Source of the DNA: Selenomonas sp. TAMA-11512
GTDB lineage: Bacteria; Bacillota; Negativicutes; Selenomonadales; Selenomonadaceae
Assembly: GCF_037076525.1 (NCBI RefSeq)
Contig: NZ_AP029018.1
Coordinates: 1,426,001 to 1,490,000, forward strand
Direction of reading: 5' to 3'
DNA: 64,000 nucleotides
Made by a program: the position numbers and the translations under genes. The notes below the pieces were generated by a model. The model was not told the origin of the DNA, ran no database searches, and saw only the letters and a list, made by a program, of their open reading frames with translations. Positions 34,093 through 42,641 of this stretch are shown piece after piece. Positions within the stretch are counted from its first letter, which is position 1. Each line of letters starts with the position of its first letter.

Positions 34093-35091
34093 TTACTTCC
34101 GAAGAGCTTTCCAGCTATCCTCGGCACGTGCAGCAAACAGGTCACGAACCGCCTTGTTCTCACCAAGTCCATGGAGATATGTGGAGACCTTGAAGCCTTC
34201 TTTTTCAAGAATAGACTTCTGTGAGTCATCTTCGTCACCTGCCATGTCATTGTTTGCATGATCGCCTGCAACCATCATCATCGGCATGAGAGTGACGTTT
34301 TTTATGCCCTTTTCATGGAGCTTTGGAATGATTGTTTCCAAGGATGGCCAACCTTCGACGGTGTAGATGTAGACATTGTCCATGCCCATTTCAGCAAGTC
34401 TTGCCTGCATAACGGAGTAGTAAGCATTTGACGGATGCGGCGTGCCGTGGTTCATGAGCAGAATCGCATCTTTTTTCCCGGTCTTTGGAAATTGTGTCGA
34501 GATTGCCTTGAGCGCCTCGGTGACATCATCAGCCTGATCTTCCTGTCCTTGCCAGTAAATGAGCGGCGTACCAAGCGTTAACTTCTTAAAGTTGTTCTTA
34601 TACAAATGGAAGACAGCACGATTATAGTCGTATTCCATACCCGGAATGACGTTCAGACTTGTCATAGCGACTCTCGTATAGCCCTCTGCCTTAAGCTGCG
34701 CTAATGCTTCTTCAGGTGTCGGATACGTAATTCCCTCATTCTTTTTTATGCGATCAATGATGATATGTGAGGTAAACGCCGTCACAACCTTGACTCCCGG
34801 ATGCTGTGCCTCGATTCTCTTGACTGTCGCACCAATGGTCGCAGCTCTGGTATCCGTATATGTTGTACCGAAACTCATGACAAGAATCGCATCCTTATTG
34901 GGAAGCTTGGAGAGGTCAGTATTGCCTCCTTCCAGCACACCGATTTGCGTTGCATTGAGGAGTGCGGGCGTTGCCGTCGTAACTTCATCCGACAGACTGT
35001 ATGCTGCCTCCGCATCCATCTGCGGCGAAAGAGAAAACGCCATAGCCGAGACGGCAAGTGTACATAGCAGCTGCTTCTTCCATTTTTTCAT
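34093..35091 (-). CDS. cbiK: Exported sirohydrochlorin cobaltochelatase, CbiK family
   Basis: 332 residues. A signal peptide (LLCTLAVSAMAFSLSPQMDAEA) precedes a CbiK-type chelatase: ILVMSFGTTYTDTRAATI, LLMNHGTPHPSNAYYSVMQ with a metal-site histidine, and MMMVAGDHANNDMAGDEDD with the second. Cytoplasmic CbiK inserts cobalt into sirohydrochlorin; a secreted relative, CbiK-P, is known from Desulfovibrio vulgaris and has been linked to heme or iron handling. A cobalamin riboswitch lies upstream, tying this gene to B12. ATAGGAGG precedes the ATG. Confidence 0.88.
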   Translation of the reverse strand: MKKWKKQLLCTLAVSAMAFSLSPQMDAEAAYSLSDEVTTATPALLNATQIGVLEGGNTDLSKLPNKDAILVMSFGTTYTDTRAATIGATVKRIEAQHPGVKVVTAFTSHIIIDRIKKNEGITYPTPEEALAQLKAEGYTRVAMTSLNVIPGMEYDYNRAVFHLYKNNFKKLTLGTPLIYWQGQEDQADDVTEALKAISTQFPKTGKKDAILLMNHGTPHPSNAYYSVMQARLAEMGMDNVYIYTVEGWPSLETIIPKLHEKGIKNVTLMPMMMVAGDHANNDMAGDEDDSQKSILEKEGFKVSTYLHGLGENKAVRDLFAARAEDSWKALRK

Positions 35092-35301
35092 AATAATTCC
35101 TCCTATAAAAATAAAATGACTATGACGTTATCGCTCTTTTGACATCATCCGTTACGGCTACACCATACTGCCGACTCTTTTATGAGCGGTTTCTGTGATT
35201 CCAAAAGGGTACAACACCATAGTTGCATCTATACAAGGTAGTCTGAGACTACGTTGTATCCAATCCCCTTCCCATCGCTCGTGGGTCATAGCGGTGATTT
35301 T

Positions 35302-35463
35302 TGGGCAGGCAGTTCTCCTGGCTTAGATTCATTGCAATGAACGCGCCTTCCCACGACAGTTTCCCTGCCGCAGTGACATATCTGCGTCATGCTCCTCTTA
35401 CAGTGGCGGGACCGCATCGGCTTCTACCGACTTCTCTCTTAGGTCATATCGACACCTGCTCAA
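35302..35463 (-). promoter_or_regulatory. Cobalamin riboswitch upstream of cbiK
   Basis: On the minus strand the RNA holds the conserved GCGGUCCCGCCACUGU, GGGAAGGCGCG and AAGCCAGGAGAACUGCC blocks, with GCAGG/CCUGC closing as P1. A CCCA-CGAGCGA-TGGG hairpin follows and may be the P13 arm. Cobalamin is expected to reduce expression of the chelatase; no U-tract terminator is evident in the 210 nt before the ATG. Confidence 0.93.
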
Positions 35464-35484
35464 TATATGAAGTTTTCATTTATT

Positions 35485-35856: not shown

Positions 35857-36399
35857 TCAAGCCGGACGCTCTATTATCCCGGCAGCAAAAAGACCCGCAT
35901 AGTCAATCGAAGACTTGGCCGGAGGCGTTGCATCACGATACTGTGCGTCTTCTTCCAGCGGTGAGAAGCGGTGTATCCGACCGACCTCAATTTGGCAGCG
36001 TCTTACCCCCCTCTCTTGCGGCATCGGATCATTAACCGTAATGCACGCGCTGCTCACGAGAGGCTCTCTGCCTCGACTGTTAAGGAAATTGATGTAGTAT
36101 TCAATCTGCGGCTCATCCTCCAGGCTATTGTAGTAAATACCTTTTGGCATCTCTCCCTCTTTTGTCTGCGCATAGGGATTGACAACAGCATAGATCGTAT
36201 CAAAGAGTGTCGACAGATCCAGGTATTTGGGATTGTAGCGGATAGAGACGCCGAAGCGCATCTCTTGTCCTCCATCATCTGACTCGCTCTCAAGGATAAT
36301 CTGTCCTGCCGTCACATCTACGACACCCCGGATTCGTCCGCATAGGTACTGGAGGTCTTCGTATGCTCCACCAGAAAGATAGATGTGCTTCAAGTACAT
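35857..36399 (-). CDS. MsrA-like protein lacking the catalytic cysteine
   Basis: 180 residues. The sequence follows peptide methionine sulfoxide reductase A along most of its length: IYLSGGAYEDLQYLCGRIRG matches the active-site helix, VSIRYNPKYLDLSTLFDTIY matches the central strand and helix, KEGEMPKGIYYNS the next loop, and HRFSPLEEDAQYRD the C-terminal block. The catalytic motif G-C-F-W has become G-A-Y-E, so reductase activity by the known route is not possible. Three other cysteines are present but not at the normal site. Start at ATG 36399 (AAAGGGG 8 nt upstream); a GTG 6 nt earlier overlaps the meaB stop. Part of the mut operon. Confidence 0.7.
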   Translation of the reverse strand: MYLKHIYLSGGAYEDLQYLCGRIRGVVDVTAGQIILESESDDGGQEMRFGVSIRYNPKYLDLSTLFDTIYAVVNPYAQTKEGEMPKGIYYNSLEDEPQIEYYINFLNSRGREPLVSSACITVNDPMPQERGVRRCQIEVGRIHRFSPLEEDAQYRDATPPAKSSIDYAGLFAAGIIERPA

Positions 36400-36401
36400 G
36401 T

Positions 36402-37625
36402 TCACGTCCCCTTTCCCGTATAGAAGAAATCCGTCGCATGGCGTGACACGGCACGCTCGACATCGAAGAGTCGGACAAGTTCAGCAACCCCCTGCGTCGG
36501 CGATATCGTCCCGGAAATCACAGCTTGCTTGATCTCAGGCATACGTCCCGTAATGACGGGATCGTCAAAGAAGATGTTGTGCAGATGCTCATCAATCATA
36601 CTGTGCATCCAGTCGAGAAGTTGGCTTTCTCTGCGTTTTTGAAAAGAACCCTTTCTCATTGTCACTTGCTGGAAATATTGAATGACTTGCCAGAGTTCTT
36701 TCAGACCCGTCTTCTTGATGGCCGAGGCCAGATAGGCATGTGTCTGCCAGCCTGGCGTTGCAGGCCGAATGAACTCAATCATGCGCTCGTACTCGCCTCT
36801 TGCAATCTTTGCTTTGAGAAGATTATCACCATCGGCCTTGTTGACTACGATGGCATCGGCAAGCTCCATAATGCCTTTCTTTATGCCCTGTAAATCATCT
36901 CCCGCGCCTGTCAGGACAACGAGCAGGAAGAAATCCACCATGGATCGAACGGTCGTCTCTGACTGCCCGACACCGACGGTTTCAATGATGATGACATCGT
37001 AGCCTGCCGCTTCACAAAGGAGCATCGTCTCACGAGACTTTCTCGCAACACCGCCAAGTGTTCCCCCTGCCGGTGAAGGGCGAATAAACGCCTCCGCACG
37101 TCTGGAGAGCGATCCCATACGCGTCTTATCTCCAAGAATGGATCCGCGTGTGACGGAACTCGTCGGGTCGACAGTGAGAACAGCAACTCGATGCCCCATA
37201 TCGCACAGCATATTGCCAAATGCCTCAATCATCGTTGATTTACCGGCACCGGGCACGCCTGTAATACCGATGCGAAGAGCTTTTCCTATCCGTGGCAGCA
37301 GCGATTGGAGGACAGCTTGAGCCTTTTTGAAATGTCTTGGACTATTGCTTTCAATGAGAGTGATTGCCCGAGAAAGCACCATGCGATCCCCCGCCGCAAC
37401 ACCCTTGACATAGTCGTCCACGGAGAGAATCATCTTGCCTTTGCTCTTTTTCGTACCGTTTAATATGGCCGGATTGATGTTGCCGACGGTCGTGTCCTGC
37501 ACTCCTTCAATTCCGCTCATAACACTGGTAGTAAAAGCTTCACCCGCATTTTGGGGTACCCAATCGGGGCGCGTCTCCGTGTATTTCTTGACTTGCTGTG
37601 TCCTTGTAAACGTCTTTTCTTCCAT
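36402..37625 (-). CDS. meaB: Methylmalonyl-CoA mutase-associated GTPase MeaB
   Basis: 407 residues. MeaB guards methylmalonyl-CoA mutase by using GTP to gate delivery and removal of adenosylcobalamin. Visible: P-loop ITGVPGAGKSTMIEAF (near residue 130), LTVDPTSSVTRGSILGDKTRM, the DVIIIETVGVGQSE switch region and the VVNKADGDN base-recognition motif. The family normally begins nearer the VLSRAITLIES helix; here about 60 extra residues precede it. GGAGG lies 6 nt before the ATG. It follows mutB by 105 nt, and the MsrA-like gene begins at its stop. Confidence 0.95.
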   Translation of the reverse strand: MEEKTFTRTQQVKKYTETRPDWVPQNAGEAFTTSVMSGIEGVQDTTVGNINPAILNGTKKSKGKMILSVDDYVKGVAAGDRMVLSRAITLIESNSPRHFKKAQAVLQSLLPRIGKALRIGITGVPGAGKSTMIEAFGNMLCDMGHRVAVLTVDPTSSVTRGSILGDKTRMGSLSRRAEAFIRPSPAGGTLGGVARKSRETMLLCEAAGYDVIIIETVGVGQSETTVRSMVDFFLLVVLTGAGDDLQGIKKGIMELADAIVVNKADGDNLLKAKIARGEYERMIEFIRPATPGWQTHAYLASAIKKTGLKELWQVIQYFQQVTMRKGSFQKRRESQLLDWMHSMIDEHLHNIFFDDPVITGRMPEIKQAVISGTISPTQGVAELVRLFDVERAVSRHATDFFYTGKGT

Positions 37626-37730: not shown

Positions 37731-39920
37731 TTACTCCTCTATTTCTTCCTTAGCCCGTGCGATGAGAAGCTTAAGAAGTTTTATACCGGCTTCCGGAATA
37801 TTCGTTCCGGGAGCAAAAATAGCGACTGCACCGCCTTCGTATAGGCAGTCATAATCCTGCACCGGGATAACCCCTCCGATGGCAACCATGATATCCTCTC
37901 TTCCACGCTTAGCGAGTTCCTGAACGAGCTGTGGCAAAAGCGTATTATGCCCTGCAGCGAGCGAACTGAACCCGACCATGTGGACATCATTATCCACGGC
38001 ATCTTGTGCCGTCTCCTCAGGCGTCTGGAAGAGCGGCCCGACATCGACATCCCAGCCCATATCTGCAAAGGAAGAAGCAATAACCTTCTGCCCTCGGTCA
38101 TGTCCATCCTGGCCCATTTTTGCAACAAAGATTCTCGGACGACGACCGGTGAGTTTCTCAAAGTCATCGGCAAGGCCGCGAGCCTTATCAAGCTCTGTCT
38201 TGTCGGTAAACTCTGAAGAGTAAACGCCCGAAATCGTATGAATAACCGCCTGGAATCGTCCGGAAACCTTTTCGACGGCATCGGAAATTTCACCCAGAGA
38301 ACAACGTACGCGAGCCGCCTCTACAGCGCACTCGAGAAGATTTCCGTTATCGCGGCTCTCGGCAGCCTTTGTAATGGCTTCCAGAGCACGATGCACGTCA
38401 TCTTCGTTGCGCTCTGCACGAAGCTTTTCAAGACGTTCGATCTGTGAGTTGCGAACAGCAGTGTTGTCAATCGCCAGAATTTCGAGCGGATCTTCCTTAT
38501 CAAGCCGGAACTTATTAAGACCCACAATGGTCTCATTCCCCGAATCAATACGCGCTTGACGACGAGCGGCCGCCTCTTCAATGCGCATCTTCGGCAGTCC
38601 TGTTGAAATTGCCTTTGCCATACCTCCGAGGTGCTCAACCTCTTGGATATGTGCCCAGGAACGTCGGATGATCTCATTCGTCAGAGCTTCTACATAGTAA
38701 GATCCGCCCCATGGATCAATAATCTTGCAGACACTCGTCTCGTCTTGGATATAAAGCTGCGTATTGCGTGCGATACGCGCCGAGAAGTCCGTCGGAAGCG
38801 CGATGGCCTCATCCAACGCATTCGTATGCAGGCTCTGCGTGTGACCGAGCGCCGCACCCATTGCCTCCATCGCCGTGCGGGCGATATTATTGAATGGATC
38901 CTGCGCTGTAAGCGACCAACCGGAGGTCTGTGAATGTGTTCGAAGAGCCATGGACTTCGGGTCTTGCGCACCAAAGGACTTGACGATTTTAGCCCAAAGG
39001 ACACGGGCCGCACGCATTTTTGCAACTTCCATAAAGTAGTTCTTACCGATCGCCCAGAAGAACGAAAGACGTTTTGCAAAGGCATCGACAGGAAGCCCCG
39101 CTTTAATGCCTGTACGTATATATTCGAGTCCGTCGGCAAGTGTATACCCGAGTTCAATATCCGCCGGCGCACCGGCCTCCTGCATATGATATCCGGAGAT
39201 GGAGATGGAATTGAACTTCGGCATGTACTTTGTCGTATACTCGAAGATATCTCCAATGATACGCATTGACATATCCGGTGGGTATATGTAGGTATTGCGA
39301 ACCATAAACTCTTTAAGAATGTCGTTCTGAATCGTTCCCGCTAAAACCTTTTTATCGACTCCCTGCTCGATTCCCGACTGAATAAAGAAGGAAAGAATCG
39401 GCAATACCGCTCCATTCATCGTCATTGAAACCGACATCTGATCGAGCGGAATGCCCGAAAAGAGAATGTTCATATCCAGCATGGAGCAAACAGAAACACC
39501 TGCCTTGCCGACATCGCCCAGCACGCGGGGATTGTCTGCATCGTAGCCGCGATGCGTCGGCAGGTCGAAGGCAATCGACAGACCCTTTTGCCCGGCGGCA
39601 AGGTTGCGTCGATAAAATGCGTTGGACTCTTCTGCGGTGGAAAAACCGGCATACTGTCGAACCGTCCACGGACGAAACACATACATGGTCGAGTAAGGGC
39701 CCCGCAGACAAGGCGGTATACCGCTGGCGAACTCAAGGTGGTTCATGTGATCGTATTCGTCATGATTATAGAACGGTTTGACGGGAATTTTCTCCATCGT
39801 GCGAGTGATAAGAGAATCATAGCTCATGCCCGTCGCCTTTTCGAGACGCGTTCTCCACATCGACTCTTCCTGTGCCGGAGCTTCCTCTAAGGATAGTTTT
39901 GATAAGTCTGGATATGTCAT
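37731..39920 (-). CDS. mutB: Methylmalonyl-CoA mutase large (catalytic) subunit
   Basis: 729 residues. It interconverts succinyl-CoA and methylmalonyl-CoA with adenosylcobalamin, the step that links succinate to propionate. N-terminal barrel with [22 protein letters not shown] and the substrate-binding [22 protein letters not shown]-terminal cobalamin domain with [14 protein letters not shown], whose histidine replaces the lower ligand of B12, then [10 protein letters not shown] and AIGGVIP. ATG overlaps the mutA stop by one base (TGATG); a GTG one codon earlier is possible. Confidence 0.98.
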
Positions 39921-42106
39921 CACTCTACCATGCCTTTCTTCTTCTGGAGAAAATCAAGGATCTGATAACAGTTTGCACGCACAGAGATAAAATCGTCTAC
40001 ACCGGCCTCTCGGTAGACAGGCTCAAGCTCTTTTGGCGCAGCACCTGCCAAATAGATCGTCGCAGCCGGTAAAGCTGCCTTGAGCTTTGGTGCAATCTCG
40101 GGCACAATCTCCGGATACGTCGCATCGGTCGAACAAATGACGCAGACATCGGCACCCGACTCTTTTGCAGCTGCCGCTGCATCATCCGTCGTCTGAAAAC
40201 CGTCGTTTAACAGCACCTGGAATCCGCCAACCTGCAAGAATCCAGTCGTAAAGTCCGCTCTAGCCTTATGCTGCGGAATGGGTCCCATGTTGGCGAGAAA
40301 GACTTTGACGTTATCGCCGTCGTGCGTCTTGCTATAGGTTTCCGTACGCTTACGAAGAGCCTCAAAACGCTCACTCCAGCGGTGTGGCAGAATGGCGTTA
40401 ATTTTCTCAGATACGGCTGCGTTTTCGAGGAGCACTGCGCGCAGTTCGACAAGCGTCGCACCTGCCTTGGCGGCAAAGATTGCCTCACCGACGCCTTTGT
40501 ATTTCCTAAAGTCAGCGAGTTTCTCAAGCTTGTACTCTTCGTCAATGTCTGAAAGATACGCAAGAATGGCATCCTCTCGCGCCTTCTTGAGCTCCTCAGG
40601 GTCCTCTGTGCGGGGATCAAGGAGTTCTTCCGTCATATTGGGGTACATATTGTTTCCGACGATACGATCCCGGCGAAGTTCCGCCGCCTTAAATCGTGCC
40701 GATAAAATTTCGCCGATCGCACTTTGCCACGAGCCGTCTTTTAACAACTCTGTGATGCCGCCCTTTGCCTCAATGGACTGAAAGCTTTCCCAAATTCGCT
40801 CCTTCATCTGCTTTGTCAGTGTCTCAACCGCCCATGAGCCGCCCGCCGGATCAATCGGCTGAAGCAGTCCGAACTCTTCTTGCAGCATAATTTGTACATT
40901 TCGAGCGATGCGGCGAGAAAAAGCATCTCCCTTGCGGATCGGCTCATCAAACGGGGCATTCTCATAGGAATCAATACCGCCGACTACGCCGGAAAAAATC
41001 TCCGTTGTGTTTCGAAGCATATTGACATAAGGATCATAAATCGTGTTAAAGAACGATGCCGGACGCCCGTGTACATGGATGCGCTGAGCATCCTCCGAGC
41101 CTCCAAAGGCCTTGATGATATTTGCCCAAAGCGGCCGAAGCGCACGTAGCTTCGCTATCTGCAGGAAGAAGTTGACACCCATCGAGAGTCCGAACGCAAT
41201 CTGGCCGGCCGCTTCATCAATCGTAAGACCTCGATCCATGAGCGCACGCAAATAGGTGACGGCAGTTGCAAGGACAGCTGCAACCTCCTGCACATCATTT
41301 GCTCCACCGCGGCTATAGACGTCGCTGCGAACAAATACCGTACGAAGCTTGGGAGCATTTTTCACAGACCACTTTGAAACCTCTGCCATTTCATCATAGA
41401 GTACATCGAGAGAAGCATAGTTCTCGCCTCGTTCGACAAGTTCTCCTAAGGGGTCTGCACCGAATATGCCGCGGAGCTTTGCAACATCACGCCCGTCGGC
41501 TTCCAAGGCGGCCGCAGCCATCGATAGGAGCGGCAATGCCGAAGCCCCTGCATAGAGCAGGAGGGGACGCTTCTCCAGGTCGAGCTCCGCGAGGAGCGTA
41601 TGGACATCATCGAGTGTCGACAGGCTCGTCCCTTCGTCGCCGATGACAACAGCCTCGTCGTTTATTCCTTTATTCTCTCTCGTCGCACGATCGAGGCGAA
41701 TATGGTAAATTGTCGATCCCTTTGACGCCTCTTCTTTCAATAGCTTGTTGTTTTCACTCGGCAAGGTCTCGTCACAAGCCTGTGCAATTCCCCAAGGCTT
41801 TTCAATGTAGCCGTTTACCCTTGCGCCACGCAGGAAATCATCCATGCCCGGAAAAGATGCTTTTGGCAATATATCCTCCGTATCCTTGCGGAAGTACATC
41901 GGATCAAAGGTGATGCCCTCGTATGTCTTTGTGAACATCTTCTTCTCAAAGGGCGCGCCCTTCAGAAGTGCCTCACAGGCTTCCTTCCACTCCTCGAACG
42001 TTGGCGGGATGAACTCATCCAAGGGGACATCCGGAAAACTCTCTTCGGCATCGGCTTTTCTCAGCATCGCCATGAGATCCAGCTCTTCCGCTTTCTCCTC
42101 GCGCAT
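39920..42106 (-). CDS. mutA: Methylmalonyl-CoA mutase small subunit
   Basis: 728 residues. Same fold as mutB but non-catalytic: in the C-terminal domain [13 protein letters not shown] stands where the cobalamin-binding D-x-H-x-x-G should be, as known for small subunits of heterodimeric mutases. The N-terminal part is more divergent ([19 protein letters not shown]). The ATG at 42106 is best spaced from GGAGG; an ATG 6 nt earlier sits too close. It is the first gene after a promoter, a cobalamin riboswitch and a terminator. Confidence 0.95.
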
Positions 42107-42271
42107 CGTCATGCCTCCTTTTCCTTCTACAAAAACGAGACGCCCGCTATTCGTACTTCTTCAAATACATACACCCTCACTTCATGAACTCTCCCTAAAA
42201 GATAACGGATGATGCAACGAATGTACGCATTACTGTGACAGTCTCATACGTCTCCGGCAAGTCCGGCAAAT

Positions 42272-42298: not shown

Positions 42299-42421
42299 GA
42301 TGTAGCAAAATAAAGCCAGTCTTGCCAAATCCCCTTCCCATCGCTCGCAGGTTCAAATGTCAGTGCATCTCCTGTACGCTGCCCTTGCACACAGGAATAC
42401 ACCACATCAACGGTGATTCTC

Positions 42422-42619
42422 AAACAGGCGGTTATCCTGGCTCCAGGTCTTCATCTCTCTTGCGCCTTCCCAAGGTACTCATTTCTACCCCAGTGACTGT
42501 CTTTCGACGTGCAAGGAAACTCGCTGTTACAGTGGCGGGACCGCTCCGGCTTGTACCGGATTCCCCATTGAGTCTTACCATGAACAACTCTGCATTGTCC
42601 ACAGGTTTGACACCTGTTC
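42422..42619 (-). promoter_or_regulatory. Cobalamin riboswitch upstream of mutA
   Basis: On the minus strand AACAGGUG pairs with CGCCUGUU as P1. Inside are GCGGUCCCGCCACUGU, GGGAAGGCGC and GAGCCAGGAUAACCGCC, the conserved core of the family. A 20-nt segment after it (42328-42347) is identical to the one past the cbiK riboswitch. It has its own promoter and terminator and is directed at the B12-dependent mutase genes. Confidence 0.93.
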
Positions 42620-42641
42620 ATCATATTCAATTCGCAATTTT

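Follow-up and report, generated by a model that had tools for sequence, protein, structure and literature searches.

A cysteine-less MsrA relative as a candidate accessory protein of the methylmalonyl-CoA mutase MutAB and its chaperone MeaB

Why does a relative of the methionine sulfoxide reductase MsrA that lacks the reactive cysteine lie next to the genes for methylmalonyl-CoA mutase? The question is raised by a stretch of 64,000 nucleotides from Selenomonas sp. TAMA-11512, here called the window, which encodes a protein of 180 aa at 35857..36399 (- strand). We call this protein cMsrA, a pseudo-MsrA that is defined by its ORF, its predicted MsrA fold and its place in a set of 91 Cys-less members. 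How B12 is loaded onto methylmalonyl-CoA mutase and repaired there is a chaperone problem that has been studied thoroughly; its known parts are MeaB/MMAA and MMAB. MeaB, which binds MutAB tightly, gates AdoCbl loading by the adenosyltransferase and also removes cob(II)alamin that is damaged (PMC10356863). An earlier note on this DNA had suggested that a dead reductase fold could act as a binder of a protein or cofactor and serve the mutase or its GTPase.

In the window, the gene order is mutA-mutB-meaB-cMsrA, with all genes on the - strand. The small subunit of the mutase is encoded by mutA (39920..42112; Pfam MM_CoA_mutase, E 2.4e-137), the large subunit with the B12 domain by mutB (37731..39923; NF006944, 1230 bits) and the GTPase chaperone of the mutase by meaB (36402..37622; Pfam MeaB, E 9e-104; NF006958, 479.6 bits). 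A cobalamin riboswitch (42410..42631, - strand; Rfam RF00174, 76.7 bits, E 1.8e-17) is located 5′ of mutA. By proximity and strand, cMsrA is a member of the operon behind this riboswitch, and the gene order suggests that it is co-transcribed with the mut genes. The cMsrA frame begins with an ATG at 36399-36397 and reaches its stop within 35857-36399 (- strand), and the meaB stop TGA (36404-36402) lies 2 bases 5′ of this ATG. The earlier description of stop and start as touching thus holds, with a 2-base gap or, if translation begins at the alternative in-frame GTG (36405-36403), with an overlap as GTGA. A second cobalamin riboswitch in the window (35291-35474, - strand) is found 5′ of a cbiK-like gene (34093-35091).

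The kinship with MsrA, which the earlier note had claimed, is weak by sequence. On its own, the window protein scores 18.6 bits against Pfam PMSR (E 0.0023; cut-off 23.7) and 12.5 bits against TIGR00401 (cut-off 108.1), in both cases below the cut-off, and its top PDB sequence match is the MsrA/B 7e43 (E 4.8e-5). An AlphaFold2 model built on a family-based alignment has a pLDDT of 84.8 (87.6 with a wider alignment). Foldseek assigns the model to MsrA (E 1.4e-10), all 44 matches at E<=0.001 being MsrA, and VIA-align superimposes it on 5fa9_B with a Z of 17.5 and an rmsd of 2.5 Å over 143 residues. The model confidently matches MsrA structures and no other fold, showing at the level of the predicted structure that the fold of cMsrA is that of MsrA. 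Hence, the kinship holds, and no different fold emerged. Compared with MsrA (PF01625), cMsrA shares the fold, the order of secondary structure elements, the G-G loop and the Y-N-P and A-E-E-x-H-Q-x-Y-L motifs, but it lacks the catalytic Cys, the GYCH Cys, the Trp, the Asp and mostly also the Glu. It further differs from MsrA in an additional loop of ~20 residues and in its linkage to the mutase operon. A genuine MsrA with the loop AGGCFWG is encoded elsewhere in the same genome.

Next to meaB, the gene is a recurrent neighbor. Whole-genome searches find homologues that are 34-43% identical in other genomes from the window's family; a first contig scan of genomes with the window protein alone as the query gave no match. 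In the first 24 homologous loci, cMsrA is directly 3′ of meaB without exception (24/24). A scan of named genomes yields 80 loci in Selenomonas, Schwartzia, Pectinatus, Mitsuokella, Anaerovibrio, Centipeda and relatives, and many of the carriers are gut, rumen and oral anaerobes. At 67 of these loci, mostly with the order mutA-mutB-meaB-X, cMsrA directly follows meaB, 10 carry it clearly elsewhere and in 3 the contig is uninformative. The wider search adds relatives in three further families of the class (f33, f15, f34). Members in f33 show the order mutA-mutB-meaB-X again and have the Cys replaced by Pro or Ser, the f15 gene lies 5′ of mutA, and the f34 relative does not adjoin meaB. The idea that the gene always adjoins meaB therefore stands for most relatives, with exceptions in some genomes, and MeaB is retained without cMsrA in a few. 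Among 398 sampled genomes of the phylum, a spread beyond the class was rejected: matches outside the class cover roughly 2/3 of the profile or have much lower scores, and the two best of them carry C-F-W and are ordinary MsrAs, the remaining ones being judged by coverage or score.

A cobalamin riboswitch heads the mut operon in 10/10 related loci tested, including f15, where cMsrA is the first gene behind it, and none was found near orphan cMsrA copies in 10 loci. For mutA of Veillonella parvula, a riboswitch of this class is already known (PMC9600662). Fusions of cMsrA with MeaB or a mutase subunit were not found among the loci examined. An apparent MeaB-cMsrA fusion (L008) is an assembly artefact with the end of meaB duplicated at a contig end, in a 542-aa frame (G194) cMsrA ends at its own stop before the next gene, and frames of 315 and 330 aa (L128/L130) were judged by eye to be readthrough upstream of the normal start rather than a second domain. 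Some neighborhoods hold further genes. Downstream of meaB (in L145 also of cMsrA), four loci (L143, L144, L145, L209) carry varying sets of TIM-barrel-, TonB-receptor- or binding-protein-like genes, possibly for B12 uptake. In Anaerovibrio (L097, L119, L120, L127, L129), a second mutase with a separate B12-domain protein follows within a few kb, accompanied by a distant MeaB paralogue (33-34% identity) and no pseudo-MsrA.

In an uncultured rumen genus, mutB, meaB and cMsrA are often far apart or on separate contigs, and most genomes retain all three. In some of them, cMsrA has stayed with meaB after mutB moved; in others, mutB and meaB are together and cMsrA has moved. The retention of cMsrA after the scattering of the operon means that hitch-hiking in the operon alone is an insufficient explanation. 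Co-inheritance was counted in genomes of the window's family that are at least 90% complete, with G012, whose meaB is broken by an assembly duplication, scored as having both genes. MeaB and cMsrA occur together in ~83 genomes, MeaB alone in 6 (among them a genome with a contig end and another with a degenerate copy) and neither in 14; cMsrA never occurs alone. The Fisher p of ~6e-13 treats related genomes as independent and is thus overstated; metagenome bins make up many of the genomes surveyed. Within one genus, four genomes (G065, G069, G072, G075) retain MeaB and MutB and have no cMsrA, suggesting that cMsrA is of help but dispensable.

In the window's family, near-complete genomes have cMsrA only together with one MutAB-MeaB type. 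It is missing from three of the family's genomes whose MutAB-MeaB is more distant (MutB 75%, MeaB 57%), and in the MeaB tree these genomes group with other cMsrA-less lineages outside the cMsrA-carrying clade. Presence therefore tracks the type of mutase and not the family. MeaB sites that change in parallel in cMsrA-losing genomes gave nothing clear, and the rate correlation with cMsrA, in which MutA ranks first (partial 0.59), is confounded, as faster-evolving regions generally correlate better. Taken together, a dedication of cMsrA to the MutAB-MeaB system is well supported, and the earlier suggestion that it serves the mutase or its GTPase draws strong support from gene order, co-inheritance and retention after operon break-up. 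Alternatively, cMsrA might serve another B12 process under the same riboswitch, such as uptake or the adenosylation or remodelling of cobamides. The position of the operon behind a cobalamin riboswitch fits this, as does an orphan copy (L114, 6992-10107) that by eye lies just 5′ of cbiA/cobB-like and cobU-like cobalamin genes. However, the remaining orphans have unrelated neighbors and no riboswitch, and within one family presence follows the MutAB-MeaB type, which makes this alternative unlikely.

The loss of the active site bears on what the protein could still do. We aligned 91 Cys-less members, the window protein included, with 11 Cys-bearing active MsrAs, all of which (11/11) retain every catalytic residue. 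The former catalytic loop of the window protein (residues 9-15, 36355..36375, - strand), identified by alignment with the genome's own and other active MsrAs, reads S-G-G-A-Y-E-D in place of the A-G-G-C-F-W-G of MsrA, and the replacement of the reactive Cys by Ala (GGCFW to GGAYE) was read correctly in the earlier note. The catalytic Cys is absent from all Cys-less members (0/91), its position being occupied by D (51), S (28), N (5), P (3) or else by A, E, K or a gap. The active-site Trp and Asp are likewise absent (0/91 each), the catalytic Glu is left in 5/91, and the GYCH Cys (0/91) is a Thr in 75/91. Since the same losses recur in the same gene in 91 members, chance is excluded for the loss of the Cys. 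The missing catalytic residues in all members show, as far as residues can tell, that cMsrA is a catalytically inactive protein, so that the 'dead reductase' proposed earlier holds at the sequence level. In one genome that is 100% complete (G113), the copy L170 (2869-3303) is degenerate with HARDLSE at the G-G loop, possibly a gene that is being lost.

An inactive pocket might still bind. In this reading, cMsrA would still recognise methionine sulfoxide, either free or as part of a subunit, but leave it unreduced, and would act for the mutase as a redox sensor or reader. The MsrA fold persists and the pocket Tyr (QYR) is still a Tyr in 62/91 Cys-less members, but the QYR segment is deleted in the window member, the Trp, the Asp and mostly also the catalytic Glu are lost as counted above and the clade-specific conserved residues are different ones, so this reading is improbable. 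We consider it more doubtful still that the old loop has become the site of a new enzyme that uses its Asp/Ser, His/Tyr and Glu. The loop does have a consensus among Cys-less members, G-G-[D/S]-F-[H/Y]-E-L-Q, with the Glu in 83/91, but a substitute nucleophile, or any catalytic residue, would hardly vary as much as the residue at the Cys position does, and the loop is partly deleted in two f15 members.

Selection speaks to whether the gene has any role. The median dN/dS of cMsrA is 0.090 compared with 0.033 for MeaB over 96 mutually non-independent pairs; cMsrA is clearly under purifying selection. To a decaying, now functionless hitch-hiker in a strongly selected operon we give very little credence: its faster evolution (mean distance 0.47 vs. 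0.10-0.29 for the neighbors) and its loss on several occasions would fit, but the low dN/dS, 18 invariant residues among 24 cMsrA sequences and its maintenance in three families, also after separation from the operon, do not.

Three segments set cMsrA apart from canonical MsrA, the first two being clade-specific. The first patch (residues 57-61, 36217..36231, - strand) reads P-K-Y-L-D, with the consensus P-K-K-x-D; K58 and D61 are present in 100% of 80 family members, and the pair is absent from canonical MsrA. The second segment (residues 94-109, 36073..36120, - strand) corresponds to helix 93-108 of the model and contains E94, D95 and F105 (each 100%) and R109 (89% of the 80 members). The third (residues 112-133, 36001..36066, - strand) is the insertion of ~20 residues with N123-D124-P125 and R133, which is not found in canonical MsrA and is predicted to be flexible (pLDDT ~50). 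K58, D61, D67 and F105 are invariant in the 80 members and atypical for MsrA; R109, N123 and D124 are nearly invariant. In the strand order of the MsrA fold, β1 is antiparallel to β3. Reasoning from this topology, the K58-D61 turn and the start of helix 93-108 are expected at the edge across from the former Cys loop.

The origin of this surface can be approached through the tree. The 91 Cys-less proteins from three families form one clade (support 99/97), which adjoins the f34 enzymes and is set apart from ordinary MsrA (99/95); the window copy is the most divergent, with a terminal branch of 1.53. A single Cys-less clade implies that the active site was most simply lost once, and a single recruitment with a single loss of catalysis is the simplest history. 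The f34 relatives (L162-L165), the nearest in the tree, are complete Cys-bearing MsrAs that have the same insertion, shortened in two genomes (L164/L165). Unlike cMsrA, they have a full active site and are encoded away from mutAB-meaB. The f34 enzymes of L162/L163 share K58, D61, E94, F105 and N123 with cMsrA: the Cys-bearing MsrAs of the two genomes that have this MutAB-MeaB (G331, G332) carry these residues and also R109, whereas those of the two genomes without it (G333, G334) have Q, A, A, R and H at the five positions and retain the active site, with R109 changed in one of them. This is as predicted for a putative mutase-binding surface, in a single contrast with two genomes per side.

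We therefore favor, with a probability of roughly 0.6, the reading that cMsrA descends from MsrA, is inactive and serves as an accessory protein of the cofactor-loading/repair assembly MutAB-MeaB. As a non-enzymatic part of this system, cMsrA would bind MutAB-MeaB physically, with MeaB or MutAB as the contacted partner, and the contact might involve K58/K59/D61, E94/D95, F105, R109 and the flexible N-D-P loop. It may assist the GTPase in placing cobalamin on the mutase or in repairing it there, or it may stabilise the complex. As for its history, an MsrA may have gained the surface while it was still active, catalysis being lost once the gene had joined the operon. More tentatively, this third protein of cofactor maintenance might descend from an MsrA that bound the assembly already as an active reductase; genomes like G331 and G332 would then preserve the two-function stage, and only the binding would have been kept by the operon copy.

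Among the known systems, MeaB/MMAA and MMAB have in common with cMsrA the operon or pathway and the proposed action on the same assembly (PMC10356863). Their folds, those of a GTPase and an adenosyltransferase, respectively, are unrelated to that of cMsrA. An MsrA linked to MeaB or the mutase operon, or a Cys-less MsrA, was not found in the open-access full texts searched, in keeping with the earlier remark that no role had been described for such an operon protein. Pseudoenzymes turned regulatory or scaffold subunits are a known general class, with which cMsrA has in common that an enzyme fold without activity is retained by selection in the role of a partner; the open-access full texts searched yielded no example derived from MsrA. 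If the favored reading is true, it would add a new conserved part to B12 maintenance in anaerobes of the rumen, gut and mouth that use the propionate pathway. It would also show how a repair enzyme turns into a pure binding protein, in a case in which active-site-complete and inactive sisters can be compared. Since species that are in culture and have names carry cMsrA (Selenomonas ruminantium, Schwartzia, Pectinatus, Mitsuokella), the claim lends itself to direct tests.
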